DNA of 64,000 nt. It comes from Rhodospirillaceae bacterium. GTDB taxonomy: Bacteria > Pseudomonadota > Alphaproteobacteria > Rhodospirillales > Rhodospirillaceae. The stretch covers positions 248,001-312,000 of the forward strand of contig JAPKDQ010000001.1 in assembly GCA_028822445.1 (NCBI GenBank), written 5' to 3'. A program made the position numbers and the translations under genes. The notes beneath the pieces are model-generated. The model was not told where the DNA came from. It saw only the letters and a list, made by a program, of their open reading frames with translations, and searched no databases. Of the stretch, positions 22,382 to 58,452 are shown one piece after another (within the stretch, counting starts at the first letter, position 1; each line of letters begins with the position of its first letter).

Positions 22382-23260
22382 TTAAATCCCCGGGTTGGTA
22401 AAGAAGCTCGGATAATCCTTTTTAATCCGAGTGCGTAGCCAAGACGGAACGTCTTCGGGTGTTTCCATCTTTTCTGCCAGATAGCGCATCATCATGTGTC
22501 CCGGCACATCATCCATATCCAACCATCCAGACCACGGCGTGTCGTTGGTAATATGGGCAAAGCTTTTAGCGCTTATCAGCTCAGGATTCTGGACGTCGCT
22601 AACATCTGCAGAGAATGTAACCATCTCGGTTAACTGAACATCGCTGCGGCGCGGGTTTCCTGTCGTCACCGGTTCTGCATCGCCGGGGCGGAACATCAAA
22701 ATGTCATCGTTGAAGAAAACCCGCCCTCCCCCGAATAGGGGTGGCCCCAATTTATTAACAAATATCGCCGGAGCTTCCCATTCGATGTCTGGGTTGAATC
22801 CACCGGTTGGGTTGATGCGGACAAGCGGCCCTGGCGCAGGCTTTCGGTGTTGGACCGGAACCAGCTTTCCCGTGATGGGATTGTCGTAAAATTCGTCGAT
22901 CAATGCGCCCGTTTCCGGGTGCTGGGTATAATTGCATTCCATGTAACGTAAATCGATGGTGCGATCTTCACGCACAGTCATTCGGTGCTGGCTGACACCC
23001 TCAAGACGGAACATCAATTGTGCGATGCCGCGGTCTGGTATGCCGTAGACATCAGCAACATAGTGGTAGAGGCTGATACCACCATCGAGGCGGCCACGAA
23101 CTTTTGCGTATGCCGTAAGGCAGTCGTATGGGTTGGTGAATTTGTAGGGTCCAGTCATGGGGCCACCTTTTTTATCCTGAGCCAGCGCCCCGTGACTCAA
23201 TACGCCCGCTCCAGCGGCTGCGGATGCTAAAAATTGTCGGCGGGCCAATGACTGTGACAT
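22382..23260 (-). CDS. DUF1838 protein, Tat-exported (paralog 1)
   Basis: A 292-residue protein of the uncharacterised DUF1838 family. The N-terminus has a twin-arginine signal (LARRQFLASAAAGAGVL, cleavage near ALA-Q). The mature part carries the features shared with the other four paralogs in this window: an N-P-I-T-G segment near the middle and the C-terminal motif TPWSGWLDMDDVPG. It is one of the more divergent copies. A GAGG ribosome site precedes the ATG. It is divergent from paralog 2, with 176 bases between starts. No enzymatic activity is known for the family; a periplasmic role is inferred from the signal. Confidence 0.85.
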   Translation of the reverse strand: MSQSLARRQFLASAAAGAGVLSHGALAQDKKGGPMTGPYKFTNPYDCLTAYAKVRGRLDGGISLYHYVADVYGIPDRGIAQLMFRLEGVSQHRMTVREDRTIDLRYMECNYTQHPETGALIDEFYDNPITGKLVPVQHRKPAPGPLVRINPTGGFNPDIEWEAPAIFVNKLGPPLFGGGRVFFNDDILMFRPGDAEPVTTGNPRRSDVQLTEMVTFSADVSDVQNPELISAKSFAHITNDTPWSGWLDMDDVPGHMMMRYLAEKMETPEDVPSWLRTRIKKDYPSFFTNPGI

Positions 23261-23324
23261 TTGGATACCTCATAAGGGATGCGTTTCAAACACACTCCCT
23301 GAACCGCGCTGCTCTGTCCACCCT

Positions 23325-23354
23325 TTGAGCAGCAGGCCTATTCTGCGCTAGAAT
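23325..23354 (+). promoter_or_regulatory. candidate sigma70-like promoter of DUF1838 paralog 2
   Basis: TTGAGC at 23325 and TAGAAT at 23349 with an 18-base spacer, 83 bases before the chosen start of paralog 2. It is in the 176-base region between two divergent DUF1838 genes, where both promoters must lie. Assigned by eye only. Confidence 0.35.
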
Positions 23355-23436
23355 GGCATCCTCGGCGCGGGTAGGGTCCGTCCATAATGCTACCCCGCTC
23401 CGTGCTATCGCAGTGCATTCACTCAGGGAGATATCT

Positions 23437-24450
23437 ATGACTTTTAAAGGCACAGGCGTTCCACTCATTAACCGTCGACAAGCGCTTCAATTCTCGTCTG
23501 GCATAGGCCTGGGCGTTGCAGCGTCGACGATTCTGGCCACGCCAGCCGAAGCGATCGGCGGCATGGGCAATGATGCGCGGATCAACGGTCCATATCTAGA
23601 TCTCCGCACCAAAGAAGGCACCATGGAAGCCAATGGTCGGATCTATGGCAATACCGATGCGGGTGTCCCTAAGTTTGGCTGGTATGATGGCTATGTCATG
23701 GGCGTCGCGCCCGGTGGTCCGGTTAAGAACATCTGTGGCTTTAAAGGCATGAGTTCTTCGAAGCTAATTCCTAACGAAGGTAAGCCTGGGTGGCGTAAAG
23801 TGTTGCGCGAGGTCGGCTTCTACTACGATCTAAAGACTGGTGAAATCCTGGAAGAAATGATCAACCCGTATACAGAGGAAAAAGTCCGTGTCGTTCATGT
23901 CGCCAACGATCCGTTCAATCAGACCATTGAGCCTTACTATCCGCCGCCGCCCAACTACGGTGGCTTGAATGAACAAAAAGAACCGATGCCTCAGATACCC
24001 ATTATCCTGACTTGGAATGTGTCCGGGGATGAGCGCCTGCTCATGGAACGCCATATTCACCTGTATTATCCAAATGCGCTTAAGCCGAGCAAGTGGGTAC
24101 GGGAAAGTTCTGGTCCGATGAACCGTGTGTCGGAAATGTTCTTCTTCAATATGTCTCTTGAAGACATGCAGAACCCAGATCTGACGTCTATTGAATATTC
24201 TGGGACCTGGGGTCGCATCACGCCATGGCTGCCATGGCTGCTAATGGGCCAAGCGCCTGGCAACGTCGTCTATCAGACCTTCATGGGCGGGTACGACAAG
24301 CTGGAAGATATTCCCAAAGATATCTTGGATTACACGACCCAGAACTATGAGAAGTACCTGACACCGCCTCCAGACGATTACGGCCCGTCACTTTCGAGCC
24401 TTGAAATGTACGCGCGGGAACAAGAGCCGGCGCAACCCGGCGGCGTGTAA
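23437..24450 (+). CDS. DUF1838 protein, Tat-exported (paralog 2)
   Basis: A 337-residue DUF1838 protein. The frame is open from 23353, but the ATG at 23437 has CAGGGAG six bases upstream and gives a proper twin-arginine signal (INRRQALQFSSGIGLG, end near PAEA). Mature-domain landmarks are MGVAPGG, KNICGFKGM, LREVGFYYDL, the NPYT segment, RHIHLYY, RESSGPMNRVSE, and TPWLPWLLMGQAPG. It is a close relative of paralog 3 (long matching blocks to the identical-style tail REQEPA-Q-GGV). It ends at a strong terminator. Function unknown. Confidence 0.88.
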   Translation: MTFKGTGVPLINRRQALQFSSGIGLGVAASTILATPAEAIGGMGNDARINGPYLDLRTKEGTMEANGRIYGNTDAGVPKFGWYDGYVMGVAPGGPVKNICGFKGMSSSKLIPNEGKPGWRKVLREVGFYYDLKTGEILEEMINPYTEEKVRVVHVANDPFNQTIEPYYPPPPNYGGLNEQKEPMPQIPIILTWNVSGDERLLMERHIHLYYPNALKPSKWVRESSGPMNRVSEMFFFNMSLEDMQNPDLTSIEYSGTWGRITPWLPWLLMGQAPGNVVYQTFMGGYDKLEDIPKDILDYTTQNYEKYLTPPPDDYGPSLSSLEMYAREQEPAQPGGV

Positions 24451-24473
24451 GACAGTTTAAGGTGATCACCGTG

Positions 24474-24503
24474 AAAGAGGTGCCTTCGGGCGCCTCTTTT
24501 TTT
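24474..24503 (+). terminator. Rho-independent terminator with UUCG tetraloop
   Basis: An 11-bp stem (24474-24484 pairing with 24489-24499, one T-G pair) closed by a C-TTCG-G tetraloop and followed by a run of seven T. It ends the DUF1838 paralog 2 transcript. The stop codon of the convergent VOC gene falls inside the T-run, so the hairpin can also serve the opposite strand, though its U-tract there is short. Confidence 0.9.
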
Positions 24504-24936
24504 AGGGCGCCTGTTTCTCGTCTAATGGGAAATCCACATGAATGTGGTTGCCGTCTGGGTCACGGAAGTTGACCTGCACCATGCCGACGTCTGGCATGTT
24601 GGCAAGGTTGTAGGCACAGTTCTCGCCTTCGAGCCGGTTTAGAAAGATGTTCATGCCTTCCGCGGTGAAGGCGAAGTGTTCAATCTGTGAATTTCCCTGG
24701 CCCGGCTCAGTCGCTCCGACCTCGATAAAATGCACCTGCGCCGCTTGATACTCATTTTTTACTGCGTCCAGTGTCTCGGCCATTTTCTCCTCGGCATAAA
24801 GCCAGGCTCCGCCAGCACCATCAAAGTGGGGGCGTGGTCCCGGCTTCAAATCCATCACGCGATCGTAAAACCCAAGCATGGCGCCTAAGTTAGCCGTGCG
24901 GATGTTAATGTGATCGAGGGTGAGGCTGAGTCCCAT
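24502..24936 (-). CDS. VOC/glyoxalase-fold protein
   Basis: A 144-residue cytoplasmic vicinal-oxygen-chelate protein. It has the paired modules LDHINIRTANL...FYDRVMDLKPG and IEHFAFTAEGM...FRDPDGNHIHVDF; the His of LDHIN and EHFAF and the acidic end of HVDF are the usual metal-ligand positions. The ATG at 24936 is chosen; a TTG at 24963 in frame would overlap the MBL gene by 20 bases. It is the last gene of the binding protein-MBL-VOC run. Substrate unknown. Confidence 0.8.
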   Translation of the reverse strand: MGLSLTLDHINIRTANLGAMLGFYDRVMDLKPGPRPHFDGAGGAWLYAEEKMAETLDAVKNEYQAAQVHFIEVGATEPGQGNSQIEHFAFTAEGMNIFLNRLEGENCAYNLANMPDVGMVQVNFRDPDGNHIHVDFPLDEKQAP

Positions 24937-24943
24937 GCGAGCG

Positions 24944-25837
24944 TCAAACAGCTTCAGGGGCAATTTGGAATTTCCGGCGGTCGCCGCCCTTTTGGGAAAT
25001 GATCCTACCGGCTGTCGGCCCGGCGAAATGGGCTGGCAATAGGGTCACGTCTTGGTCGGTCAAGCTATCGACCAAGGCGGCTCGCGTTGCATTTGCTTTG
25101 GCTTTATCTTCGCAGAAGGTTGTCGTCCATTCTGGGTGGGCAATGCCGACGGCTGAGTGTAGCACGTCGCCTGTTAGTATGCCTTTGCGATTGCCGCTGT
25201 CTATTTGGACACAGTAGTGACCTGGCGTATGCCCATGTGTGGGTAGAACGGTCAGGGCATCGTCCAACGAAAAATCAGTGTCGATGATCTCTGCTTGTTG
25301 CGCCTCAATGATCGGCAGAACACTTTCTTGGAAGGATGGTGCGATGTACGCCGTCTGGGCATCTTTCGCCCGTTCCTTTGACGCGTCCAGGTCGTTTTTT
25401 GAAAAAACGTACTTGGCGCGGGGGAAGGTTGGCACCCAGCGACCATCCCTCAATTGCGTATTCCAACCGACGTGATCGGCGTGGAGGTGAGTGCACATTA
25501 CGTAATCAATTTCTTGCGGAGATACGCCAACTGCCGCGAGATTACCGAGGAAGGGCCCTTCCCGCTTGCCCCATTTTTCCAGCATGCCGCCAAAGGTTTT
25601 GTGATTGCCGACACAGGTGTCAATTAGGATCGTATGGAAAGGCGTGCGGATGATATAGCTGTGGAAGCTCAGGATGATCGCTTGGGCCTGAAAATCGTAG
25701 AAATGTGGCTCCAGCCAATCCCGGCACTGCCCGGCTGGTGTGAGGTCTTCTGTTGGATAGGCACGTGCCGCAGGAAACGGCTCGACCATATCAATAATCT
25801 TTTCAACCCTGACGTCACCAAACAACTGGGGCTTCAT
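24944..25837 (-). CDS. MBL-fold metallo-hydrolase
   Basis: A 297-residue metallo-beta-lactamase-fold hydrolase related to the N-acyl homoserine lactonase/AttM-like group. The di-metal site is complete: THLHADHVGW (H-x-H-x-D-H), LPTHGHTPGH, ILTGDVLHS (bridging Asp), and LLPAHFAGP. The ATG at 25837 has AAGGAG seven bases upstream, inside a longer frame from 25864, so 25837 is the start. Lactone or ester hydrolysis is likely. It is co-directional with the binding-protein gene upstream and VOC gene downstream. Confidence 0.88.
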   Translation of the reverse strand: MKPQLFGDVRVEKIIDMVEPFPAARAYPTEDLTPAGQCRDWLEPHFYDFQAQAIILSFHSYIIRTPFHTILIDTCVGNHKTFGGMLEKWGKREGPFLGNLAAVGVSPQEIDYVMCTHLHADHVGWNTQLRDGRWVPTFPRAKYVFSKNDLDASKERAKDAQTAYIAPSFQESVLPIIEAQQAEIIDTDFSLDDALTVLPTHGHTPGHYCVQIDSGNRKGILTGDVLHSAVGIAHPEWTTTFCEDKAKANATRAALVDSLTDQDVTLLPAHFAGPTAGRIISQKGGDRRKFQIAPEAV

Positions 25838-25847
25838 GTTTATCTCC

Positions 25848-25958
25848 TTAGGTTCCTGGCTCAACCTCTACCAGGTGAAAACTCAGAATGTCGTTCCAAG
25901 GTTCCCAGTACGTCAACCGACGGTGAAGGCCGCGGAGGCCGGCGCTGGTAACCAAGCC
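25848..25958 (-). pseudogene. C-terminal remnant of a second family-5 binding protein
   Basis: Read on the minus strand, 36 codons end in TAA at 25848 and have no start: a TAG lies two codons upstream of the matching part. The peptide (HRRLTYWEPWND, then FHLVEVEPGT) lines up with the C-terminus of the intact neighbour (HRRVKTWEPMND, then YHLVELHDD). It is best explained as the tail of a tandemly duplicated binding-protein gene whose body was deleted. Its stop lies at the ribosome site of the MBL gene. Confidence 0.7.
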
Positions 25959-25981
25959 ATGCTAATATATAGCGTTTAGCC

Positions 25982-27487
25982 TCAGTCGTCGTGAAGTTCG
26001 ACTAGATGGTACATGAGGCGGTCATTCATGGGCTCCCAGGTTTTAACCCGCCGGTGAACGGCGTCCAGGCCCACGACTGGGAATAGAAACAGTGACTGTG
26101 CTACGTCATGATAATATTTTACTACTTGCCGGGTGAGGCGGGTTCGTTCTGCGATATCCATAGTCCGTTCTGCTTCATCGATAACAGGTTGGATAACCTG
26201 ATCGCAAAACCAAGGACCGGGACCGGTGCAGGCGTGATTGGTGTTGAGCAGTGGCTGTAAGGCATCGGCATAGCGGTTAGTGAAGTCCATGAGGAAGCCG
26301 TCGCCGTCTAGTTGCCCCAGTATGGTCCGCTGTAATAGTTGCGGATAAGTTATTAGTCGCACATCCATCTTCATGCCGACTTTTAGGACGTCCGATGTGA
26401 TTTGCTGCAGGATGGCGGTGTCGTTCGGCAGAATCCCTGCGAGAGATTCGATAACAAAGGATACCCCGTCCTCATATCCAGCTTCAATTAGTAAGGCGCG
26501 GGCTCGCTCCGGATCATAGGGGTAGGGCTTAACGCCGGGTGCATACCCAACGGCAGATGGTGTCGCGCCTTGCCCAGCGGGTTCAACTAATCCAGCCAGA
26601 AGAATCTCAGTAATGATTTCTTTATTTATCGCGTAATTAAATGCTTGCCGGACCCGCATGTCGCTAAAGGGGGAGGCTTGGTCGTTTGATTTCAGGGCAA
26701 AAACCAGAATGCGACTTGGGTTGCGCAAAACTGTGCGATGGCCGTTCAACTCCAGCATATCTATTTGATCAGTACTGATGACGGTTGCGACGTCGATCTG
26801 TCCGGTCTCCAGGGCTTGAATGCGGGCTGAGGCGTCCGGCACGAAATAGGCTTCCATCTTGTCGACCTTCGGTGGGCGCCAAGAGTCACGATTGGCCGAC
26901 AACGTCACTTTTTCTGGTTCCCAGCGGTCAACGGTAAATGGACCGCTCCCGATCGGCTCGTTGACTAACCCTGCGAGACCAACATTTTGAACATGACCTT
27001 CGGGTGCAATGAATAGGGCAGAGAGGTAAGCTGGCAGAACCGCATTAGGTTTAAGTGTGTGAAATGCCACGGTGAGTTCGTCAATAACTTCTACGAGCGG
27101 ATAAAAACCTTCCTGACGAGACCAATAGACGGCGTTGATTCTATCGTTACGCATGAGATCAAAGACGGTCTTTACGGACTGGGCCGTGACAGGCTCACCG
27201 TTTGAGAATTTTACATTTGGTCTCAGCTTAAAGTGCCATTCCAGGTCGTTTACTGATTGCCAGGACAAAGCTAACTCGGGAACTATGTTGCCCTCGTTAT
27301 CTATGTCGGTCAGGCGGTCATAAATGGCTGTCCATAAAAAAGTCGGCGTCGTGCCTATTGTCGAAAATGGGTTACCTTTCGATGGGGGTGCCGCACTCAG
27401 GGCAATTCGAAAGGTTAAATCAGCGTGGGCGGTTCCGGCGACTAAAAGGCTGAGAAGCAGTGTGAGTGTGTGAACTGTATTTTTCAT
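25982..27487 (-). CDS. ABC transporter substrate-binding protein, family 5
   Basis: A 501-residue periplasmic solute-binding protein of the peptide/nickel/glutathione (SBP_bac_5) class. A Sec signal (TLTLLLSLLVAGTAHA) precedes the mature part; typical blocks are ALSWQSVNDLEWHFKLRPNVKFSNGEPV, FTVDRWEPE, ASARIQALETGQIDVA and VRQAFNYAINKEII. No permease or ATPase genes are adjacent, so it is an orphan or uses a distant transporter. It heads the MBL-VOC run, suggesting that its ligand is the compound those enzymes process (inference). Confidence 0.92.
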   Translation of the reverse strand: MKNTVHTLTLLLSLLVAGTAHADLTFRIALSAAPPSKGNPFSTIGTTPTFLWTAIYDRLTDIDNEGNIVPELALSWQSVNDLEWHFKLRPNVKFSNGEPVTAQSVKTVFDLMRNDRINAVYWSRQEGFYPLVEVIDELTVAFHTLKPNAVLPAYLSALFIAPEGHVQNVGLAGLVNEPIGSGPFTVDRWEPEKVTLSANRDSWRPPKVDKMEAYFVPDASARIQALETGQIDVATVISTDQIDMLELNGHRTVLRNPSRILVFALKSNDQASPFSDMRVRQAFNYAINKEIITEILLAGLVEPAGQGATPSAVGYAPGVKPYPYDPERARALLIEAGYEDGVSFVIESLAGILPNDTAILQQITSDVLKVGMKMDVRLITYPQLLQRTILGQLDGDGFLMDFTNRYADALQPLLNTNHACTGPGPWFCDQVIQPVIDEAERTMDIAERTRLTRQVVKYYHDVAQSLFLFPVVGLDAVHRRVKTWEPMNDRLMYHLVELHDD

Positions 27488-27836
27488 GAGGGAATGGTAC
27501 CCTATTAAACATGGTGAAAAGAAGAGGCTGATGTTCGGTTTTTGGACGTCAGATCTACTTCATTTCTACTTCAATAACCCAACAACGGCGCTTAGGGCTC
27601 TATACATAGGAATATTATAGCAGCCACCGATGTATAGTAATTTTCTTGGTTGAGATGAAAGTATGTAATTAATGCCAAGGGGTTCTGTTGCCGCGACGCT
27701 TATGGCCACGCCGTCGCTAGCATGGGCGACAAGACCGCTCAGCGGTTACATCTATAGGTGAACATTTGCGGAGACCCGTATTTTTCTTCAGTTTCCCTGT
27801 GATAGCGTGGTGTCATCTTATACAGGGAGAATACCA
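27488..27836. other. 349-base divergent intergenic region
   Basis: Separates the binding-protein gene (minus) from DUF1838 paralog 3 (plus), so promoters for both should be here. It holds a short frame resembling a decayed signal peptide (27672-27761, listed separately). The last 45 bases before paralog 3 resemble the leader of paralog 2 (see findings). No other gene was found. Confidence 0.55.
27672..27761 (+). pseudogene. possible decayed signal-peptide fragment
   Basis: A 29-codon frame from ATG 27672 to TGA 27759 encodes VAATLMATPSLAWATRP, which has the hydrophobic core and A-x-A cleavage site of an export signal and resembles the signal end of DUF1838 paralog 2 (VAASTILATPAEA). The twin-arginine part is missing and nothing follows. 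It may be what is left of another DUF1838 gene, or chance. Confidence 0.25.
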
Positions 27837-28916
27837 GTGACAGATGTAACAGGACCAAACGGTAATATTGAAGTGCGGACCGGCCTTGTGGTTGAGGATT
27901 ACGATAGCCTCGGAGGGCCAGCTACCAGCCTTAGTCGTCGTCAGGCGCTGAGTTCCGGCCTTGGCGCTGGTATAGGGGTAATGAGCGTGGCCGGCATGAC
28001 AGGCAGCGCAGGGGCCGCGACACCGGACCTTTATAAACGCATCGAGAATGCGTCGCTCAAAGGCCCCTATCTCGACCTTACGACGCCAGAAGGCAACATG
28101 ATCGCAATGGCGCGTATCGATTCTGACATCGACATGAAAACCACTACTTACGGCTGGTACGATGGTTTGGTGATGGGGGTTGCGCCGGGTGGTTCGATTA
28201 AGAACATTTGCGGCTTTAAAGGCATGAGCTGTAAGCGATTAATTCCCTATGAAGAAGGTAATGGTTATCGCAAGCTTCTGCGCGAAGTGGGTTTTTATTA
28301 CGACCTCGCGACGGGCGAGATCTTAGAAGAGATGGTCAACCCGTATACCGATGAAAAAGTGCGTGTCGTGCATGTGGCAAACGATCCATTCAACGGCATC
28401 ATCCGCGATACAATCCCGCCAGGGCCGTCTTACGGTGGCCTTAATTCTGGTAAGCGCGAGCCCAAGCCGTTCTTGCTTGATTGGCAAATCAAAGATGAGT
28501 GGTTGCTATTCCAACGGCACATTCATCTCTATTACAAAAATGCTCTCGATCCGCAAGAATGGGTCCGGGAGAGCTCCGGCCCCATGAATCGTGTGTCGGA
28601 ATTATTCTACCACGTGCATTCATTGAACCAGATTCAAAATAAAGAGCTCACCCATGTATATGGCACAGGCACGTGGGCGCGGATCACTCCATGGCTGCCG
28701 TGGATGCTGATGGGCCAGGCGCCTGGCCATGTGGTCTATCAAACATTTATGGGTAGTCGGCATTCTCTGAATGACATTCCGCAAGACATTGTTGAATACA
28801 CAGCGAAGAATTACCCCAAATATTTGGAAGCACCAGATGTGTGGGAAGAGCCGTCTCTATCATCCATCGAGCGCTATTCCCGTGAACAGGAACCAGCATT
28901 GCAGGGCGGGGTTTAA
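27837..28916 (+). CDS. DUF1838 protein, Tat-exported (paralog 3)
   Basis: A 359-residue DUF1838 protein starting at GTG 27837, with CAGGGAGA seven bases upstream; this matches the start context of paralog 2. A roughly 35-residue polar N-region precedes the twin-arginine signal (LSRRQALSSGLGAGIG). Shared landmarks are MGVAPGG, KNICGFKGM, LREVGFYYDL, NPYTDEKVRV, RHIHLYY, RESSGPMNRVSE and TPWLPWMLMGQAPG. It heads an apparent operon with an 8-TM protein and an exported thioredoxin-like protein. Function unknown. Confidence 0.87.
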   Translation: MTDVTGPNGNIEVRTGLVVEDYDSLGGPATSLSRRQALSSGLGAGIGVMSVAGMTGSAGAATPDLYKRIENASLKGPYLDLTTPEGNMIAMARIDSDIDMKTTTYGWYDGLVMGVAPGGSIKNICGFKGMSCKRLIPYEEGNGYRKLLREVGFYYDLATGEILEEMVNPYTDEKVRVVHVANDPFNGIIRDTIPPGPSYGGLNSGKREPKPFLLDWQIKDEWLLFQRHIHLYYKNALDPQEWVRESSGPMNRVSELFYHVHSLNQIQNKELTHVYGTGTWARITPWLPWMLMGQAPGHVVYQTFMGSRHSLNDIPQDIVEYTAKNYPKYLEAPDVWEEPSLSSIERYSREQEPALQGGV

Positions 28917-28947
28917 CCCGCGCGCTATAGTTTGTGAGGGAGCATTT

Positions 28948-29823
28948 ATGTTTGGTAATTTTTACCGACCACCATTCGTTGGAATCATTGCTTTTGTCAC
29001 CGTCATTATGGCCCAGCCGTTGGGGCACACCTTGTTCGTTTTGCTTAAAGGTGTACTCGGGTCGCCGGACGAGGCATCGCTCACAGCCAGTTTCCTATGC
29101 GGCCTTGCTGGTTTCGCATTGGTCTGGGTTGGCTTGAAGAAGCCAGAAACAGCGGCCACGTGGCTCGGCTTTGTCGGCGGCATTCTCATTTGGACGGGGT
29201 GGTTCGAATATACGTGGGAACTGTTTGCACACCTACTCAATGTTCAGCCACTCTACACAGCCAGCGGAGAGGTGGCGATGAGCCCTGGTCTCCAGATCAT
29301 TCAGGCGTCTGGCATCGTCATGTTTGCTGTAACCATGCTGTTCTACTTTAATCGCGACACGCGATGCACAGCCTTTAAATGGTTACACCGCAACGCGCAT
29401 ATGAATCCTGGAAAAGCGGGGGCCGGCAAAGACCGTGACTATGCTAGGATCACCGCGCTTGAGACCATCTTCGTAATTTGGTTCATCTACGTCATCAATC
29501 TCACGCTTTATGATGAGCGCATTCTTGGCATAGAGCACCCCGTCACATACGGCGTCTTTTTTGGCTTTCTGGTTTGGGCGATCTATCTCAATACTCGTCT
29601 TATCAAGTACGCCCGTATGGCGCCCGCTGTTCGGTATGCTATCCCCACGACCATCATAACGTGGCTCGATATTGAAGTGCTGAGCCGGTGGGGAATCCTC
29701 AAAGAGTTCTGGCTGATGCCTCGCGACTATGCTTTGGAAATGGGGCTTGTCGTGGCGGCTTTTGTTATTGCCGGGATCGCCATATATTTAACGCCAGAGC
29801 GTGGTGAAGAAAACGCATCTTGA
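28948..29823 (+). CDS. polytopic membrane protein, family not recognised
   Basis: A 291-residue protein with about 7-8 hydrophobic segments (for example VGIIAFVTVIMAQPLGHTL, GFVGGILIWTGW, IVMFAVTMLFYF, TIFVIWFIYVINLTLY and VVAAFVIAGIAIYL). It starts at ATG 28948 with GAGGGA just upstream, 31 bases after the DUF1838 paralog 3 stop. Aromatic and His residues inside helices (FEYTWELFAHLL) could suit cofactor binding, but no motif names a function. The spacing makes co-expression with the DUF1838 gene very likely. Confidence 0.75.
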   Translation: MFGNFYRPPFVGIIAFVTVIMAQPLGHTLFVLLKGVLGSPDEASLTASFLCGLAGFALVWVGLKKPETAATWLGFVGGILIWTGWFEYTWELFAHLLNVQPLYTASGEVAMSPGLQIIQASGIVMFAVTMLFYFNRDTRCTAFKWLHRNAHMNPGKAGAGKDRDYARITALETIFVIWFIYVINLTLYDERILGIEHPVTYGVFFGFLVWAIYLNTRLIKYARMAPAVRYAIPTTIITWLDIEVLSRWGILKEFWLMPRDYALEMGLVVAAFVIAGIAIYLTPERGEENAS

Positions 29824-29895
29824 GTAGGGTTAAACCCCACGCTTTTGAACTGTTTCCCCAGGCGCCTATGACGGCGCAAGGTTTCTTGAGGAGAT

Positions 29896-30432
29896 ATGAA
29901 CAGCATGCATAAGAATATTTTGATTGCATTAGCCCTGTCCATCAGCGTACTTGGCGCACCCGCTGTCGGGCAGGAATCCGTGTTTCCAACTGTAAAGGCG
30001 CGGACTCTCAACAAAGATAAGATTACGGTTCCAAAGGATTTTTCTGCCGCCCGAAACGTTCTGCTTATTTCTTTTGGTCGAGACATGCAGGATACTGTCG
30101 ATGCCTGGGATGTGGCGCTTACGCCCTTGCGTAAATCATCTGATGCCGTGCAGGTCTATAACTCTCCTCTAATTCCAAATCCTGGCGCGTTAGTGCGCGG
30201 GTTTATCAACGGTGGATTTCGCGGGATATATAAAGGCAAAATGCTAAGAGAGCGGGTTGTCATTCTTTATATTGATGAAGATGAAGTGTTTCCGGCCCTT
30301 AGCATTACGGATGGGGATAAAGCTGTGCCGTTAGTGCTGGTCACCGATCAAGCAGGCGTGATTCTTGGCCGTGTCTCTGGGCTTGCGGATGAATCTAATG
30401 TTGCAGCCGTAACGGAGCTTGCTTCGCCATAG
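29896..30432 (+). CDS. exported thioredoxin-like-fold protein lacking redox cysteines
   Basis: A 178-residue protein with a Sec signal (NILIALALSISVLGAPAVG). The mature part suggests a thioredoxin fold: a first strand and helix (NVLLISFGRDMQDTVDAW), and a later AVPLVLVTDQAG with a likely cis-Pro, but the usual C-x-x-C or peroxidatic Cys is absent. Third gene of the DUF1838 paralog 3 run, 72 bases after the membrane protein gene. A chaperone or binding role is possible; the fold call is an inference from pattern. Confidence 0.55.
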   Translation: MNSMHKNILIALALSISVLGAPAVGQESVFPTVKARTLNKDKITVPKDFSAARNVLLISFGRDMQDTVDAWDVALTPLRKSSDAVQVYNSPLIPNPGALVRGFINGGFRGIYKGKMLRERVVILYIDEDEVFPALSITDGDKAVPLVLVTDQAGVILGRVSGLADESNVAAVTELASP

Positions 30433-30434
30433 CT

Positions 30435-30662
30435 GAAGGTGCTGGGGTTCGTCTTCAGGGCCTTTTCATCGGTTTTTCAGAATACCAGAAGGGCAGCCTA
30501 TCTGCTCGCTTGTACGATGAGTTAGCAAAGCGTGACGGCAAGAAAAACCATGAACTGTTTGTTGTCGGGGAGCATACGGTCTCGGTTGAGAAGGCGATAA
30601 CCACACTAGGCGAGCAACATATGCAAGATGTGGAGAGCGTACAATTTCCCGAGCGGAGATGA
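30435..30662 (+). pseudogene. coding remnant without a start codon
   Basis: A 75-codon open stretch ending in TGA at 30660 reads like real protein (GLFIGFSEYQKGS, ARLYDELAKRDGKKNHELFV, then VSVEKAITTLGEQHMQD) but has no usable start in frame before the neighbouring gene. The family is not recognised. It is interpreted as the C-terminal end of a gene whose front was lost, just downstream of the DUF1838 paralog 3 operon. Confidence 0.4.
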
Positions 30663-30681
30663 TTAGGCTTGTTGGAGGTTA

Positions 30682-31512
30682 TTAGGCCCAGGGGTCTTTA
30701 AGGAACCCTGGGCGCCGGTCGTTCAAAAATGCCAAGACCCGCTCGGGCGCTTCGGTTGCGTTTGGATGCTTGAGTCCCACGAGTTCAAAGCTACAGATGC
30801 CAGCCTTTTGACCCATGCGCATCCAAGGGTACCAACCGCTCATGGACTGGTAGTGCATCGTCGTTGGAACGAAATCTTTGTCCAGGTCGGCAATGTTGGC
30901 TTTATAAGTGACTAAAGACGTGCTGGTACTCACTTGACCGCCGTAGACTAGGGGATCAGAACCCGCTGCAGGTTCTGGTCGACTGGTCTTTGTAATCAGT
31001 CGCTCCTGAGACCAAATAACAGGGCCGTTTGTGATAGGTGAGACTATGGTGCCCTCGGCATACCGCATTGCCGCACGCCGGTCTTCGGGCAATTCCCAAT
31101 TTCCGTGCTTATCAAAAGATAAGCTCTGAGAAGACTTGAAGTGCTTTGGCTCACACTCAAGGCCATTCATGGGGTTTGTCCAGGCGTCAGCGAGTTCACC
31201 CGTGCCCGGGTGTTGCCAGAAACCACACTCGATCATTTTCTGATCGACGCCACCGTCTTCATGCAGGATCATTGTGTTGAAGCTGAACCCGTCAACGCGA
31301 AAGAGTTGACGGGCGATCTCTCCTTGAGGCTTGCCCCAATATGCGCCGGAGTATGACCACAAGCCGTCATTGCCATCCAAATTACCACGTAGTTGAACGT
31401 ACAGCTTGTTTTTGTCGATCGGGCTCTGTGCCTTTGCCGACGTCATAGACAGGCCTGTTGTCGCTGCAAGCCCGGTCAAAGTGGCACGGCGTGAGAGGGC
31501 GGCTGGTTTCAT
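30682..31512 (-). CDS. DUF1838 protein, Tat-exported (paralog 4)
   Basis: A 276-residue DUF1838 protein. The frame extends to 31671, but that part overlaps the upstream MAPEG gene; the ATG at 31512 (or 31518) begins a twin-arginine signal (LSRRATLTGLAATTGL, end near AKA). Shared features are an N-P-M-N-G segment and the motif SGWYPWMRMGQKAG; a GLWSYSGAYW stretch near the start of the mature domain parallels WYYNG in paralog 5. It is 19 bases downstream of a MAPEG gene on the same strand. Confidence 0.85.
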   Translation of the reverse strand: MKPAALSRRATLTGLAATTGLSMTSAKAQSPIDKNKLYVQLRGNLDGNDGLWSYSGAYWGKPQGEIARQLFRVDGFSFNTMILHEDGGVDQKMIECGFWQHPGTGELADAWTNPMNGLECEPKHFKSSQSLSFDKHGNWELPEDRRAAMRYAEGTIVSPITNGPVIWSQERLITKTSRPEPAAGSDPLVYGGQVSTSTSLVTYKANIADLDKDFVPTTMHYQSMSGWYPWMRMGQKAGICSFELVGLKHPNATEAPERVLAFLNDRRPGFLKDPWA

Positions 31513-31531
31513 AATCATGTTCCGTGTTGAT

Positions 31532-32021: not shown

Positions 32022-32513
32022 ATGACCGAACGCACGAGCCCGGTTAAAAGAACAACGATTTTCTGCCGGAATATAGAAGTTTCACTCAAGCTATATCGCG
32101 ATATTCTGGGGTTCTCAGTCGCTGAGGACAAGACTGTCGCTGGCCCCGCAATGGCTAAAATGATCGGGCTATCCGATTGCAGCATGCATATTTGCCACTT
32201 AAGAGCCCATAACAGTGAAGACGGTCTCATTGGACTCTATGAGATCACCGCCGATGATGTGCCAGAGACATCTCGTCCACCGGAAGGTGTTATTCACCTT
32301 GGGCAAGTTGCGATCGTTGTGAATACCGACCAGCCCGCTGAAATTGCAGCTGACCTGGAAGCCAAAGGCTACCCCTTCCTGACGCCGCCAACGAAGTACG
32401 TCAAAGAAGAAGACGGCGAATACATGAAGGCTGGCACTTACACAGAAATGATTTTCTATGACCCCGATGGCGTTCTGGTCAGCGTCCTGGGGTATAAACC
32501 CAAGGCGGCTTAA
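32022..32513 (+). CDS. VOC/glyoxalase-fold protein
   Basis: A 163-residue single-chain VOC protein without signal peptide: TIFCRNIEVSLKLYRDILGF at the N-terminus and MIFYDPDGVLVSVLG at the C-terminus. It resembles the exported VOC at the left of the window in module layout. Ribosome site GGGGAG lies about nine bases before ATG. Divergent from the MAPEG gene. Substrate not predictable. Confidence 0.8.
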   Translation: MTERTSPVKRTTIFCRNIEVSLKLYRDILGFSVAEDKTVAGPAMAKMIGLSDCSMHICHLRAHNSEDGLIGLYEITADDVPETSRPPEGVIHLGQVAIVVNTDQPAEIAADLEAKGYPFLTPPTKYVKEEDGEYMKAGTYTEMIFYDPDGVLVSVLGYKPKAA

Positions 32514-40622: not shown

Positions 40623-42023
40623 ATGATGAACAAACTGAAAGCATGGTGGACGCTAGACGAAGCTGCCGAAGCCGAAAGCGACGATAATCCGTTTGCACCG
40701 CTTACGCCGGCGCAACGTCAAGACACGCTGCCAATGCTAACTTTGGCCTTTGGTTGGGGATTTCTCATCACAGGTTTGTTGACTGGCGGTCAGCTCGGGG
40801 CTGGCGTCGCGTTTTGGCCAGATCTGATTCTGGCGACCCTTGTAGGAAACACGATCAATTTTGTCATTGGCGGTTTAGTCGCGTATATCGGATACAAGAC
40901 GGCTTGCAACTCAGGTTTGCTTTATCAATTTGTGTATGGGCGAATTGGGGTCTTTCTACCTGTTATATTTTTGGCGCTGCTAACCACTGGCTGGCAGGCC
41001 ATCGTTGTCGGCGCTTTTGGGTTCGCATGGGCGCAGGATTTTGATAGCCCAACCTTCTATGCCGTCGCAATTTTCGGTGGGCTTTTGTTTACCGTTACAA
41101 CGTACTACGGCGTAAAAGGGATTGAGCGCGTGAGCGTTCCCTCCGTTGCTATCCTGGTGTTGGTTGGCCTTTACGCTATTTATCTGAACGTCGATCAAGC
41201 AGGCGGTGGTGCGGCGTTCCTGGCCATGTCACGGGACACTGCGGCGCAGAACCCAATTTCGTTTGTGACTGCCGTTAACCTTGTCGTGGGGTCATGGATT
41301 GTTGGCGCTGTTGTGATGGCAGAGTACACGCGTTTCGCCAAGAAGGTTTGGGTCGCGCTCGCGATACCCTTTATTGTGATGATTATTGCGCAGTGGTTCC
41401 TGCAAATCGTTGGCGCACTAGGCGGCGTTGTGTCTGGATCAGCCGATTTCACGACGTACTTGTTGCAACAAGGGATGGTTATAGGCGGCATCGGACTTAT
41501 CGGCATGAGCTTAGCGCTCTGGACGACCGGCGATGCCAACCTCTACTTGCCAGTTATTCAGACATCCGCTGTCTTCAAACGTCCAAAACGAGTGATGGTC
41601 GTCGTTTGGGGCGTGCTCGGCACGATTCTCGGCCTGGGCCTTTACCAATATTTCTTGGCTTGGATCAGCCTATTGGCCGCCCTCGTGCCACCATTAATCG
41701 GACCGCTCGTTGTCGACTATTATGTCGTGCATAAAAGGCAATATGACGCCAATGACCTCAAGCGGCTACATACTTGGAACTGGGCGGCTGTCCTTTCCTA
41801 CGCAATCGGCGCTTACGTCGCGTATGGCGTGACCTATGGCGTTCTGGACCTGCCAGACATTCTTATTCCGTCTCTTCTGGGCTTGGTGGTTTCAATGGTT
41901 GCCTATGCTGCCATCTATTTTGTTGCTGCGGCGATGAATAAGAAGGTCGGCTACGCCAGTGTTTCATCGCGTCCGTACGAAGCTAATCCAAACAGTATTT
42001 CGCGGCAAACGCCTGCAGAATAA
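40623..42023 (+). CDS. NCS1-family permease (purine/cytosine permease-like)
   Basis: A 466-residue, about 12-helix membrane protein of the nucleobase:cation symporter-1 family. Marks include LAFGWGFLITGLLTGGQLG, the conserved DNPFAPLTPAQRQDT start, GSWIVGAVVMAEYTRFAK and GMSLALWTTGDANLYL. The start is ATG 40623 or 40626; GTG 40620 is also in frame. NCS1 substrates include cytosine, uracil, allantoin and hydantoins. The following nitrilase-like gene suggests an amide- or nitrile-containing substrate (inference). Confidence 0.88.
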   Translation: MMNKLKAWWTLDEAAEAESDDNPFAPLTPAQRQDTLPMLTLAFGWGFLITGLLTGGQLGAGVAFWPDLILATLVGNTINFVIGGLVAYIGYKTACNSGLLYQFVYGRIGVFLPVIFLALLTTGWQAIVVGAFGFAWAQDFDSPTFYAVAIFGGLLFTVTTYYGVKGIERVSVPSVAILVLVGLYAIYLNVDQAGGGAAFLAMSRDTAAQNPISFVTAVNLVVGSWIVGAVVMAEYTRFAKKVWVALAIPFIVMIIAQWFLQIVGALGGVVSGSADFTTYLLQQGMVIGGIGLIGMSLALWTTGDANLYLPVIQTSAVFKRPKRVMVVVWGVLGTILGLGLYQYFLAWISLLAALVPPLIGPLVVDYYVVHKRQYDANDLKRLHTWNWAAVLSYAIGAYVAYGVTYGVLDLPDILIPSLLGLVVSMVAYAAIYFVAAAMNKKVGYASVSSRPYEANPNSISRQTPAE

Positions 42024-42093
42024 TAAGCGTAGCGCCATACCTGGCATCGTTCGTATTGCTGAATTGAAAGAGACGACAGGCAGTGATTTTTTT

Positions 42094-42807
42094 ATGCACA
42101 GCTTCGTAAGTCAATCTGGTGGTGTTTCTAGACGCTCTGTGATGGCTTTTACGTTAGGAAGTGTAACGGCCAGCGTTATCTCTGGGTCGGCCTTTGCTTT
42201 GCCGCAGGCCGTCGGCGCGCCAAAATCTCATGTGCGTATGGTGGTTGTTCAGGCTTCTCACGGTGGGGGAGGCCTCTCAAATTTACAGATGGCGCTAGAG
42301 TGGGCAGACCGGCGTGTCGGCGAATACGATCTCATTTCATGCCTGGGGTGGAATTTTGATGCCTCTTTCAATGGCATGAATGATGTCTCCGCTTGGGCAC
42401 ATCTGAAGTCTAGGTATGTTGCCGTAGCGGGGAAACATCCAAAGCTGCTTGGCCCGAATGGTGAGTGTGATGCTTATGAGTCTCGCAACGGCATCAAAGT
42501 CTTTGCGACGGAGCTAGCGGCGATTGCGGTGGGGGCTCGCCGCTCAAATGCTATTGAATGCGCCGGTTCCACTCAACTTAGTGCGGACATTATTGTCGAT
42601 GACGGTAATTATAGAGAATCCAGGGGGGCTTTCGTTGCGGGCTTATCGCGTTCTGCAACTGGTCCCCGAAGGGGTGCTGTTATCTATGGTCCAGATTTAG
42701 AGCCTTTGACCCAAGCGTCAGGTGAGTGTCCGTGTGGTGTTGTAGCGACACTAAATGTGTCAGCCCTAAGGCGTGATCGCTCTAAGCACGCTCAAGGTCG
42801 CGATTAA
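42094..42807 (+). CDS. Tat-exported nitrilase-superfamily-like protein, degenerate
   Basis: A 237-residue protein with a twin-arginine signal (VSRRSVMAFTLGSVTAS). The mature part shows the fold pattern of the C-N hydrolase superfamily (VVVQASHGGGGLSNLQMALEW at the start; IYGPDLEPLTQ and GVVATLNVSALRRDR at the end), but the Glu-Lys-Cys triad motifs are not visible: where the first Glu is expected it reads DLISCLGWNFDA. It may be a binding or pseudo-enzyme protein. The ATG at 42094 is chosen over a frame starting inside the permease gene. It is 70 bases behind the NCS1 permease. Confidence 0.5.
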   Translation: MHSFVSQSGGVSRRSVMAFTLGSVTASVISGSAFALPQAVGAPKSHVRMVVVQASHGGGGLSNLQMALEWADRRVGEYDLISCLGWNFDASFNGMNDVSAWAHLKSRYVAVAGKHPKLLGPNGECDAYESRNGIKVFATELAAIAVGARRSNAIECAGSTQLSADIIVDDGNYRESRGAFVAGLSRSATGPRRGAVIYGPDLEPLTQASGECPCGVVATLNVSALRRDRSKHAQGRD

Positions 42808-55175: not shown

Positions 55176-56006
55176 CTATGCGTTTGGGTTTGCCGTTGTG
55201 CGGTCTGGGTGCTCGCCTAGGAGGCGTGCCTTATAAGTGGGCGGCAAATCATCAATAGAATCGAGTTTCGCTCCAGAGGCATGCCAAATGACGTGTCCAG
55301 GTTGGTCGCCCATTTCCATCCAATGAGGCCATGGGGAGAAGAATGTCGCTGAAAACGCCGCCGGAATTTTACGTACAGTGGGGTCTGCAAAATGCTCCCG
55401 GAGGGCGAAGTTTGTTTGTCGTTGTTTGCGCGGCGCGGGCAAACCCGGTGGGTAGACGGTTTCATTGTGCAGCCACACGTAGTTACCAGCTGCCGTCCAC
55501 CATAGCTTTAACGGCTTATCTTCTATCTTATCTGTAGCCCATGATGGCTCGACGCCATCGACCGTATAGTTAAAGCCCCGTTTTGGGTTTCCACCTTGAA
55601 CGGCGGCAGGGACATCTACAGTCTTACCCGTGTAAGGATTCTTCATCTGTCGCAGCCAGTCGCCGGATTCAACATCGGTCATAAACGAGACTGTGTTTCC
55701 GGTAAACCGGTATCGACCCTCTTTCACCTTCTGTGCCCAATACATCTCCATGCCTTGGAATGTCATAATTGGACGGGGGGCTTCTTCGCCGACTATCGCG
55801 AAAATGGTGCCGTTGTAATACCAAGGGCAATCTTCGGGATCTAAGCTAGCAGACATGCGGAGTAAATTACGGAGGTTCCCAGTAGGGCTTTCAATGTCAG
55901 GCAAATCTTTTGCTTGGGCCGTGCCTGGCAAGCCAGCGGCTAGTCCACTCAGCCCCAACAGGCTAAACCCTGTCAACGTATCCCGTCTTGATACTTGTTC
56001 GCTCAT
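55176..56006 (-). CDS. DUF1838 protein, Tat-exported (paralog 5)
   Basis: A 276-residue DUF1838 protein with a twin-arginine signal (VSRRDTLTGFSLLGLSGL, end near AQA). Mature landmarks: WYYNGTIFAIVGE, the NPYTGKTVDV segment and SPWPHWMEMGDQPGHVIW. ATG 56006 chosen over 56096, which would enter the Rieske gene. It is 53 bases after the Rieske oxygenase stop on the same strand, so it is probably co-expressed with it. Function unknown. Confidence 0.87.
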   Translation of the reverse strand: MSEQVSRRDTLTGFSLLGLSGLAAGLPGTAQAKDLPDIESPTGNLRNLLRMSASLDPEDCPWYYNGTIFAIVGEEAPRPIMTFQGMEMYWAQKVKEGRYRFTGNTVSFMTDVESGDWLRQMKNPYTGKTVDVPAAVQGGNPKRGFNYTVDGVEPSWATDKIEDKPLKLWWTAAGNYVWLHNETVYPPGLPAPRKQRQTNFALREHFADPTVRKIPAAFSATFFSPWPHWMEMGDQPGHVIWHASGAKLDSIDDLPPTYKARLLGEHPDRTTANPNA

Positions 56007-56058
56007 GTTTGCCTCGTCGAAGTTTGTTACTGTTGAAAAACTGTAATTTTTTCTTTCG

Positions 56059-57171
56059 CTAAGTGCAGGCCAGAGCCTCTGTCGGTATCGGGTCAATCAC
56101 CCAACCCTTGAACTTATTTCGGTCAGGGCTGGGCACCGCGTAGACTATCTTTTTTTCATTGAGGGTGACCTGAGCGCTGTCGATGCGCCAACCTTTGGCA
56201 TCCCAGGTTCTTAGATACTCTCTGTAGCGAACCAAAGCTTTGTCGTGGGGCATCATGTTTTCTTTTGTGTTGGTTAGGGGGGCGAGGATCGGTTCAAGCT
56301 CTTCTAATACCACGATGTCTTGCTGGGCAATGGCTCGTTGACGCTTCTCAATGGCAATGTCGTGTTCGTCTTCCAGCAATGCATTCCGCATGTTGACCAA
56401 CCAGCTCCGCGTATGTGTTTCATCAACCGGTGTTCTGAACGTGTACTGGTGAAACCAATTTGTTGGTGACATATGAATTTTTGTCCATGTCTGGTGCGGC
56501 CCAAAATGTCCTGTTCCCGCCTCTAGGTCTCCTGCAAAACCCCGTAGCTTTTTCATTGTTACATCTGTGAGGGCGGGAGACTGAAAGATCATCGTGAAGC
56601 CGCAGCCGTATTCGGTTTCGTCCAAGGTGTAGTCCTGAACCTTGTAGTCGTCTTTTGTGCCTTCAAAACCATGCGTGGGATGAACGAACTCATTATGTCC
56701 TGGGTCAAGTGTGTTTTCAACGGATCGCTCATAATTTGCGGCGTATTCGTTGTACATGATGGATGGCTTCCAGCCGTCGATCCCGTATTCTGGAACATCC
56801 ATGACCGGAGGACGTTGTTCCTCAATGCAGTCGCCGAGGAACGCAAAAACGAGGCCGTATTTCTCTTGTACGGGATAGCTATCAATTCTTGTGCGGGAGG
56901 GGATCTTTCCACCTTTGCCGATGGAAGGGATTTTTGTACACTCACCTGCTCCGTTAAACTGCCAGCCATGATATGGACACTCGATGGTATCAGTATGAAC
57001 TTTTCCGTTGCCGAGTGATCCGCCTCGATGCGTACAGGCGTTTGATAAGCAGTGAGCCGTACCGGCGCTGTCCCGGAATAGGACAAAATTCTGACCCAGC
57101 ATTTTCACCTTAACTGGGCCTTTTGCGAGGCCCCCTGATGCGGCAGCTGTATACCAGAAATTAGTGTACAT
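56059..57171 (-). CDS. Rieske non-heme iron oxygenase (copy 1)
   Basis: A 370-residue ring-hydroxylating-type oxygenase alpha subunit. The Rieske cluster motif is CTHRGGSLGNGKVHTDTIEC...H (C-x-H-x17-C-x2-H, with YHGW). The catalytic non-heme iron site has NTLDPGHNEFVHPTHG (Asp/His2). It would need a separate reductase; none is seen. AGGAG precedes the ATG. Similar to copy 2, 150 bases upstream. Confidence 0.93.
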   Translation of the reverse strand: MYTNFWYTAAASGGLAKGPVKVKMLGQNFVLFRDSAGTAHCLSNACTHRGGSLGNGKVHTDTIECPYHGWQFNGAGECTKIPSIGKGGKIPSRTRIDSYPVQEKYGLVFAFLGDCIEEQRPPVMDVPEYGIDGWKPSIMYNEYAANYERSVENTLDPGHNEFVHPTHGFEGTKDDYKVQDYTLDETEYGCGFTMIFQSPALTDVTMKKLRGFAGDLEAGTGHFGPHQTWTKIHMSPTNWFHQYTFRTPVDETHTRSWLVNMRNALLEDEHDIAIEKRQRAIAQQDIVVLEELEPILAPLTNTKENMMPHDKALVRYREYLRTWDAKGWRIDSAQVTLNEKKIVYAVPSPDRNKFKGWVIDPIPTEALACT

Positions 57172-57212
57172 AGGGTGGCTCCTACTTGTCGGTGCGGACC
57201 TCTGTTAATCGA

Positions 57213-57235
57213 GGCTGCACAAGAGGGGTGCAGCC
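57213..57235. other. intergenic hairpin between the two Rieske genes
   Basis: An 8-bp perfect stem (57213-57220 with 57228-57235) with a seven-base loop, in the 150-base gap. There is no T-run, so it is not a standard terminator. It may set relative expression or mRNA stability. Confidence 0.3.
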
Positions 57236-57321
57236 CCGGCCCCCGATTGACTTGGGTCATTTGGAGACCAAGTTTCTCAATCACCTCAACGTATATTGGA
57301 TGGGCAGCCTGAGGAGAATGC

Positions 57322-58452
57322 CTACTCGGCAGCGGCTTGCAGTGGTTCTTGCATATCGCAAGTAGGGGCTGGATCGATTGCCCATCCTTTTGAGGTGCGC
57401 CTGGCCGGACTCGGAATGGCGAAGGCCTTTTCTTCACGCAGAGAATTGACTTTGGCCGTATCAATTCTCCACCCACGCTGCTCCCAATCTGAGATGAACT
57501 TCCGATAGCGGGTCACCACTGTATCGGATTTGACCAGCACTTCTTCTGTCGAAGATTGAGGCGTGTAGAACGGCTCAATGCGTTCGATCACCACTTTATC
57601 CTGCGTCATAACCGCTGAATTGCGCTCGTTAATGGTTTCATCCATTTCTGGATCAGCTCGGAAATTACGAGCCTGGAGAAAATAGCGCTTTAGCGTCTTT
57701 TCATCGACGGGTGTGGAGAACCCATATTGGTGGGCCCAGGCATGCGGGCTGAAATGCAATTTGGTCCAGGCGCTTGAGGGGCCGTGGTTTCCCGCGCCGG
57801 CTTCCATTTCCCCTTCGCCTTTGAGGCCTTTCATTTTTGAATTGGGTAGGTCGGGAGAAACGAACGTTGTCATCGTGCCACACCCCCAGTCCTCTTCGAT
57901 TAACGTGAGGTCCGGCACATGGTAATCATCGCGATCACCTCCGTAGCCCATCGAGGGGTGAACAAACTCGGTGTGGGCTGGGTCTAATGTGTTCTCGACG
58001 GCACGCTGAAAATTGGCGGTCCACTCATAAACTTGTGTGGTGAGGCGCCAACCATCCTTGCCATATTCGGGTAGTTCCATGATCGGCGGACGTTCTGCTT
58101 CGGGCAGGTCACCGAGGAATGCAAAAATAAGCCCGTATTTCTCTTGGACTGGGTAGCTGTCAACTTTGGCGCGGGCTGGTATTTTGGCATCTGGACCAAG
58201 GGATGGAATTTTCGCGCAAACACCGTCTGCGCCTTTGAATTGCCAGCCGTGGTAGGGGCACTCAATATTATCGCCCTTAACCTTACCATGAGCGAGCGAT
58301 GCGCCGCGATGTATACAAAGGTTAGACAAGCAATGGGCCTGGCCAGCTGAATCCCTAAACAGAACATAATCGAATCCGAGCATGCGGACTTTGACCGGCG
58401 TATCTGTAATGTTTTCGCTTAATTCCGCGACGTACCAGAAATTCATAAACAT
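57322..58452 (-). CDS. Rieske non-heme iron oxygenase (copy 2)
   Basis: A 376-residue Rieske oxygenase alpha subunit: CIHRGASLAHGKVKGDNIEC with YHGW (Rieske motif) and NTLDPAHTEFVHPSMGYGG (His2-carboxylate iron site). Colinear with copy 1 over its length, including FWY near the start and the AWT/TWT-KLHFSPH block. Oxygenases of this type hydroxylate or demethylate aromatic substrates; the specific compound is not determinable. No ferredoxin reductase gene is nearby. Confidence 0.93.
   Translation of the reverse strand: MFMNFWYVAELSENITDTPVKVRMLGFDYVLFRDSAGQAHCLSNLCIHRGASLAHGKVKGDNIECPYHGWQFKGADGVCAKIPSLGPDAKIPARAKVDSYPVQEKYGLIFAFLGDLPEAERPPIMELPEYGKDGWRLTTQVYEWTANFQRAVENTLDPAHTEFVHPSMGYGGDRDDYHVPDLTLIEEDWGCGTMTTFVSPDLPNSKMKGLKGEGEMEAGAGNHGPSSAWTKLHFSPHAWAHQYGFSTPVDEKTLKRYFLQARNFRADPEMDETINERNSAVMTQDKVVIERIEPFYTPQSSTEEVLVKSDTVVTRYRKFISDWEQRGWRIDTAKVNSLREEKAFAIPSPARRTSKGWAIDPAPTCDMQEPLQAAAE

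Follow-up and report, generated by a model that had tools for sequence, protein, structure and literature searches.

Why should a single window of an alphaproteobacterial genome hold five copies of a gene family to which no function has been assigned? The window, by which we mean the whole 64,000-nucleotide stretch analysed here (G000:C8:248001-312000, from the Rhodospirillaceae assembly GCA_028822445.1; positions below are window coordinates), encodes four DUF1838 proteins within 9 kb and a fifth 24 kb away, referred to here as P0001 to P0005. A sequence-only reading of this DNA had proposed that they form an exported, periplasmic family that binds a ligand or a cofactor, possibly with an oxidative role, and that specialised by duplication. 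Our analysis places all five in a long-established set of 24 DUF1838 proteins encoded across the genome; the expansion is genuine, and the family behind it is known, though uncharacterised.

Membership was defined as a PF08894 score above the Pfam curated cut-off of 25 bits, which all five window genes exceeded (P0001, 55.9 bits; P0002, 146.7; P0003, 149.9; P0004, 58.3; P0005, 79.4); NCBIfam has no model that matches any of the five. Each protein has a twin-arginine (RR) pair near its N terminus in alignment A2, and an NPx[TN] segment was found in all of them. The motif [TS][PG]W..W[LM].M[GD][QD].[PA]G, rich in Trp and Met (W/M motif), occurred in 5 of the 116 window open reading frames (ORFs) of at least 90 amino acids, exactly the five in question. 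On genes, signals and motifs, the sequence-only reading was therefore accurate. Beyond the window, the genome (2.85 Mb, 98.9% complete, 41 contigs) yielded 28 family-search matches, which an iterative profile run on the fetched stretches resolved into 24 genes. Six further copies scanned against PF08894 all scored above the cut-off (lowest, 28.1 bits), as did the remaining copies in the genome search.

The expansion is shared by close relatives and is rare elsewhere. All seven genomes of the genus carry it, with 28-47 DUF1838 matches each, and contamination of a metagenome-assembled genome is therefore an unlikely source. A same-genus genome of about 4.0 Mb (G005) has 43 DUF1838 genes, a genome from another genus (G009) has 36, one of them a fragment, and one from another family of the class (G525) has 24. 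In wider surveys, in which the counts for DUF1838-rich genomes are lower bounds, the family was present in 19 of 59 sampled genomes of the same bacterial family, representing 6 of 23 genera, with none in the other 17. It was found in 2 of 199 genomes sampled from the order (both from that same family), 6 of 337 from the class and 4 of 398 from the phylum, this genome included each time; outside its own family and G525, carriers in the class and phylum samples had 1-3 matches each. Relatives of the core subfamily, among the best 80 of 401 matches (78 loci), came from Rhodospirillaceae, Chromatiales, Sphingomonadaceae, Steroidobacteraceae and Aliiglaciecola. We found no description of the expansion in the open-licence literature, by family name or by PF08894; a single paper there mentioned DUF1838.

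Orthology and phylogeny date the repertoire. Reciprocal best hits existed for 20 of the 24 genes in G005, 21 in G009 and 10 in G525. Within the genome, by comparison, each gene's closest paralog was 36% identical at the median (range 27-60%). In a FastTree phylogeny built on the 126 sequences that these four genomes contributed (one 91-amino-acid fragment omitted), 23 of the 24 genes grouped with genes from other genomes before any paralog of their own, three of these clades with low support (0.12, 0.50 and 0.68). Recent tandem duplication as the main cause is rejected by both analyses. The proposal that the family specialised by duplication thus stands in that the family did diversify in this way, but the duplications are old and genome-wide rather than local. 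Even within the cluster of four, close relationship is limited to P0002 and P0003 (59% identity), whose similarity accounts for the long local repeats in the window; three short repeats are without importance. Orthologs of P0001 in six loci (L029, L031, L033, L034, L109 and L138) are 71-82% identical over the mature part, and the N-terminal extension that precedes RR in P0003 is retained in a 90% identical ortholog (L026). Among 16 hand-chosen ortholog pairs, 14 of which are among the 20 with G005, identity was 70-91%, the proportion of synonymous differences (pS) 0.63-0.84, dN 0.05-0.23 and dS from 1.4 to saturation. The repertoire is old, maintained and under purifying selection. Transfer between lineages is possible in the case of G525 (loci L159-L177), because ten copies have reciprocal best hits there and G525 is the sole expansion in its own family, in which three of five genomes have DUF1838 and the other four hold 0-2 matches.

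We then asked what the copies have in common. Across all fetched loci, the strict W/M motif was present in 69 of 230 DUF1838 ORFs (232 hits minus two weaker overlapping ones) versus 1 of 4,125 other ORFs. Relaxing the pattern to W..[WF][MLW].M raised these counts to 191 of 230 versus 3 of 4,125. The strict motif is thus specific to the family, though not universal within it. Five columns of the family alignment A3 are conserved at 90% or more, among them the N and P of NPx[TN]. Twin-arginine-type signals are carried by 23 of the 24 copies in the genome, with RR aligned in A2, and export itself is predicted from these signals. A weak match of the family profile's signal region to signal regions of solved structures, Tat (twin-arginine translocation) ones included (best E 0.0012), points the same way. 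A stricter RR pattern matched 22 of 24, including the copy at L009, whose RR (residue 59) falls outside the signal; by eye, this copy has a Sec-like N terminus in place of an RR signal.

AlphaFold modelled the proteins as a confident beta barrel with an N-terminal helix (predicted local distance difference test (pLDDT) 91.4 for P0001 and 95.9 for P0003), and the P0003 model places the W/M motif in a loop between two late strands, at residues 225-237. The barrel resembles those of the calycins, such as BFA1/DUF3598, the CpeS/CpcS lyases, nitrobindin and Rv2717c, and is compatible with the binding of a small ligand. In the core subfamily, Glu, Arg and Tyr residues are conserved in the strands (E90, E195, R222, Y94, Y173 and Y241 of the mature P0003 model); conservation alternates along the strands (permutation p 0.0026), and most of these polar residues sit on the more strongly conserved of the alternating faces, where a polar pocket would place them. 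We put it at about even that DUF1838 proteins are periplasmic small-molecule barrels of the calycin type. Several observations qualify the resemblance to calycins. Identity to calycins is 4-9%, and DUF1838 differs from them in lacking a conserved His column and in having extra C-terminal helices, while outer-membrane (transmembrane) barrels score about as high as calycins against the DUF1838 model. Foldseek returned no good match for either model, and a sequence search of P0002 against solved structures returned nothing. The A3 profile reached only E values of 0.0012-5 against solved structures, mostly in the signal regions of other proteins and in a few short C-terminal stretches. Comparisons of A3 and A4 by hhalign with seven neighbour families, one of them CpeT-like, gave probabilities of 0.1-8%, the top result being A4 against a 171-amino-acid family (cluster 41; E 0.004, probability 8%).

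The same polar residues could instead form an active site in the core subfamily, in which case DUF1838 proteins would be periplasmic enzymes proper, such as lipocalin-like isomerases, cyclases or hydratases, by analogy with AttH/CrtC-type or OssO-type barrels. Among divergent members, however, E195 is kept in 48% and R222 in 23%; because this polar set is not retained, the entire family cannot be fitted to one chemistry. One DUF1838 member lies in a biosynthetic setting: ArtU, a 248-amino-acid protein annotated as DUF1838 and encoded by a single gene in the aurantimycin antibiotic cluster of Streptomyces aurantiacus (PMC5031334). The likeness of ArtU to our proteins is one of annotation, and the accessible part of that report states no role for it, which lends the enzyme explanation no help. 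We regard this explanation as somewhat improbable.

A different use of such a barrel would be to hold a redox or tetrapyrrole cofactor, as in nitrobindin or a haemophore. The haem ligand of nitrobindin is an axial His. Whereas nitrobindin-type haem proteins conserve this residue, alignment A3 has no such family-wide column, and no His or Cys column reached 70% conservation in 71 divergent sequences or 95% in 31 core sequences. A cofactor or oxidative role is unsupported because a family-wide conserved His or Cys column is lacking; the ligand-binding part of the earlier proposal remains compatible with the barrel model. From the alignments, a redox cofactor appears unlikely, and the likeness to nitrobindin or a haemophore is the least probable of the explanations that we considered.

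Gene neighbourhoods offer a second line of evidence. Conserved blocks recur in two genera, which answers positively whether the VOC, metallo-beta-lactamase (MBL), Rieske and MAPEG neighbours are conserved outside this genome (L109, L129 and L131 are from G005; L138, L140 and L152 from G009). The order GNAT-P0001-P0002-VOC-MBL-SBP5 is kept in L029, L031, L033 and L138, with small extra ORFs in L031 and L138; the L034 block is without GNAT, and that of L109 is without VOC, MBL and SBP5. P0004 recurs with the MAPEG-like and VOC genes in L131 and L152. P0005 recurs with Rieske genes in L129 (one Rieske gene, with two other ORFs between) and in L140 (two Rieske genes and a second DUF1838). From the sequence, the true start of P0005 is probably the ATG near 56006. 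The features of the window are collected in Table 1.

Table 1. Positions of the DUF1838 genes, their motifs and adjoining genes in the window.
Feature	Position	Strand	Basis
P0001, DUF1838, divergent subfamily, Tat-type signal	22382..23260	-	Pfam scan, barrel model
P0002, DUF1838 core subfamily, divergently transcribed from P0001	23437..24450	+	Pfam scan
NPYT segment of P0002	23863..23874	+	Family-wide conservation of N-P of at least 90%
TPWLPWLLMGQAPG motif of P0002	24220..24261	+	Pattern match
VOC/glyoxalase-fold protein adjoining P0002, conserved position	24502..24963	-	Pfam scan, neighbour comparison
Metallo-beta-lactamase-fold protein, conserved position	24944..25864	-	Distant similarity to acyl-homoserine lactone (AHL) lactonase, far below cut-off
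SBP_bac_5 (SBP5) solute-binding protein, conserved position	25982..27487	-	Pfam scan, neighbour comparison
P0003, DUF1838 core subfamily	27837..28916	+	Pfam scan, model pLDDT 95.9
P0004, DUF1838, divergent subfamily	30682..31518	-	Pfam scan
MAPEG family protein adjoining P0004	31532..31930	-	MAPEG-like gene, same place in L131 and L152
Second VOC protein	32022..32513	+	Position conserved in L131 and L152
SDR adjoining P0005	54243..55148	+	SDR also adjoins the P0005 ortholog in L129
P0005, DUF1838, downstream of two Rieske genes	55176..56096	-	Pfam scan
Rieske oxygenase, VanA_C type	56059..57171	-	Pfam and NCBIfam scans
Rieske oxygenase, VanA_C type	57322..58452	-	Pfam and NCBIfam scans

The best NCBIfam model for the two window Rieske proteins (56059-58452) is the 4beta-methylsterol monooxygenase SdmA, at about 100 bits against a cut-off of 600, a faint hint from sequence at terpenoid or sterol-like substrates. 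Elsewhere in the window, an ORF at 41959-42807 that contains an RR segment looks exported and matched no Pfam family, and scans for tRNAs and Rfam families gave no match.

Across 170 loci, 169 of them with a DUF1838 gene, the commonest neighbours within two genes, labelled by scanning one or several representatives of each cluster against Pfam, were TonB receptors (26 loci), SDR (18) and PF00144 proteins (15), followed by MFS transporters (14), proteins resembling formylglycine-generating enzymes (FGE-like; 13) and carbon-nitrogen hydrolases (12). Nearness in these counts is partly built in because the loci were centred on DUF1838; as a baseline, 690 of 1,494 neighbour ORFs were at most two genes from DUF1838. 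Using whole-genome positions in three genomes, we found 12 of 47 FGE genes near DUF1838 versus 3.2 expected, 11 of 41 PF00144 genes versus 2.7, and 6 of 21 VanA_C Rieske genes within 3.5 kb versus 1.4; the majority of genes of all three kinds lie away from DUF1838. The FGE and PF00144 tests used hand-entered positions with some ends rounded (40 DUF1838 positions in G005 and 35 in G009), a PF03781 match that was split contributed a single count, and a stop-bearing PF00144 match in G009 was excluded. Two carbon-nitrogen hydrolases (L127:5893-7059 and L042:8939-10078) directly adjoin DUF1838 and have, by eye, Tat-like N termini (RR in L042, RK in L127). LytTR regulators, membrane-type by eye, also occur near DUF1838: of the nine members fetched (L025:7634-8434, L037, L081, L114, L129, L136, L170, L171 and L177), eight are at most two genes away from it and the remaining one at most three. 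They are possible ligand sensors.

Two neighbour families have grown in parallel with DUF1838. PF03781, the FGE-sulfatase family, had 10-25 matches in six DUF1838-rich genomes versus 0-4 in twelve genomes without DUF1838, and VanA_C had 4-11 in five versus 0-1 in nine. Within one genus (g2), three genomes with 0, 3 and at least 20 DUF1838 matches (G042, G007 and G029) had 2, 10 and 19 PF03781 matches, and G007 had one VanA_C match. Copy numbers correlated with DUF1838 at Spearman coefficients of 0.87 for FGE (n = 19) and 0.88 for VanA_C (n = 15), uncorrected for phylogeny and based on hand-picked genomes in which gene counts (G000, G005 and G009) were mixed with raw match counts (the others). 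One FGE-like neighbour matched PF03781 strongly (184 bits), and 13 of the 14 members of the cluster lie within two genes of DUF1838, the other within three (L010, L021 (two), L026, L083, L090, L106, L110, L122, L123, L135, L144, L149 and L155). By eye, these proteins have secretion-like N termini, and they hold several conserved cysteines. Canonical formylglycine-generating enzymes have an active-site Cys pair after a GS[WFY] segment. In the 9 of 14 cluster members in which this C-terminal segment was found, no Cys followed within 25 residues and the canonical pair was absent.

These patterns also bear on the simplest account, ordinary gene-family growth with no common system, in which copies drift and the neighbours reflect a generally catabolic genome. 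The mixed neighbourhoods fit such growth, as does the presence of in-frame stops in a small number of copies from related genomes (G001, G002, G003, G006 and G009). This account was already weakened by the orthologs kept for 20-21 of 24 genes, and purifying selection, conserved neighbour blocks and the correlated FGE and VanA_C numbers speak further against it, leaving it quite improbable. At the other extreme, DUF1838, the secreted-looking FGE-fold proteins without the Cys pair and the VanA-type Rieske oxygenases might together form an undescribed, co-expanded system of one alphaproteobacterial clade that breaks down organic compounds from periplasm to cytoplasm, with DUF1838 as a new class of periplasmic barrel enzymes of dozens of specificities per cell. 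We regard this as an unlikely, speculative extension.

Our preferred reading, that of calycin-type periplasmic barrels, can be put as a sequence of steps. DUF1838 proteins would fold, be exported through Tat and act in the periplasm as small-ligand barrels, each paralog binding a different small organic molecule. Core-subfamily paralogs would probably also convert their molecule enzymatically. Inside the cell, further breakdown may then fall to enzymes encoded alongside (Rieske, VOC, lactonase-type MBL, SDR and hydrolase). As for the WxxWMxMG and N-P loops, they have the appearance of a scaffold common to most members, with specificity residing in variable barrel positions.

A family with no assigned function, seldom met in our class and phylum samples, thus fills 24 genes of a 2.85-Mb genome and 43 of a 4.0-Mb relative, and for the majority of its copies orthologs have been retained across genera. 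The bacteria concerned are known from metagenome-assembled genomes. Defined targets for assigning a first function to DUF1838 now exist in its ortholog sets, its modelled barrel and the blocks of conserved neighbours, and the parallel growth of FGE-like proteins presents a second unexplained family. Given this investment in proteins with export signals, DUF1838 therefore matters for the life of these bacteria.

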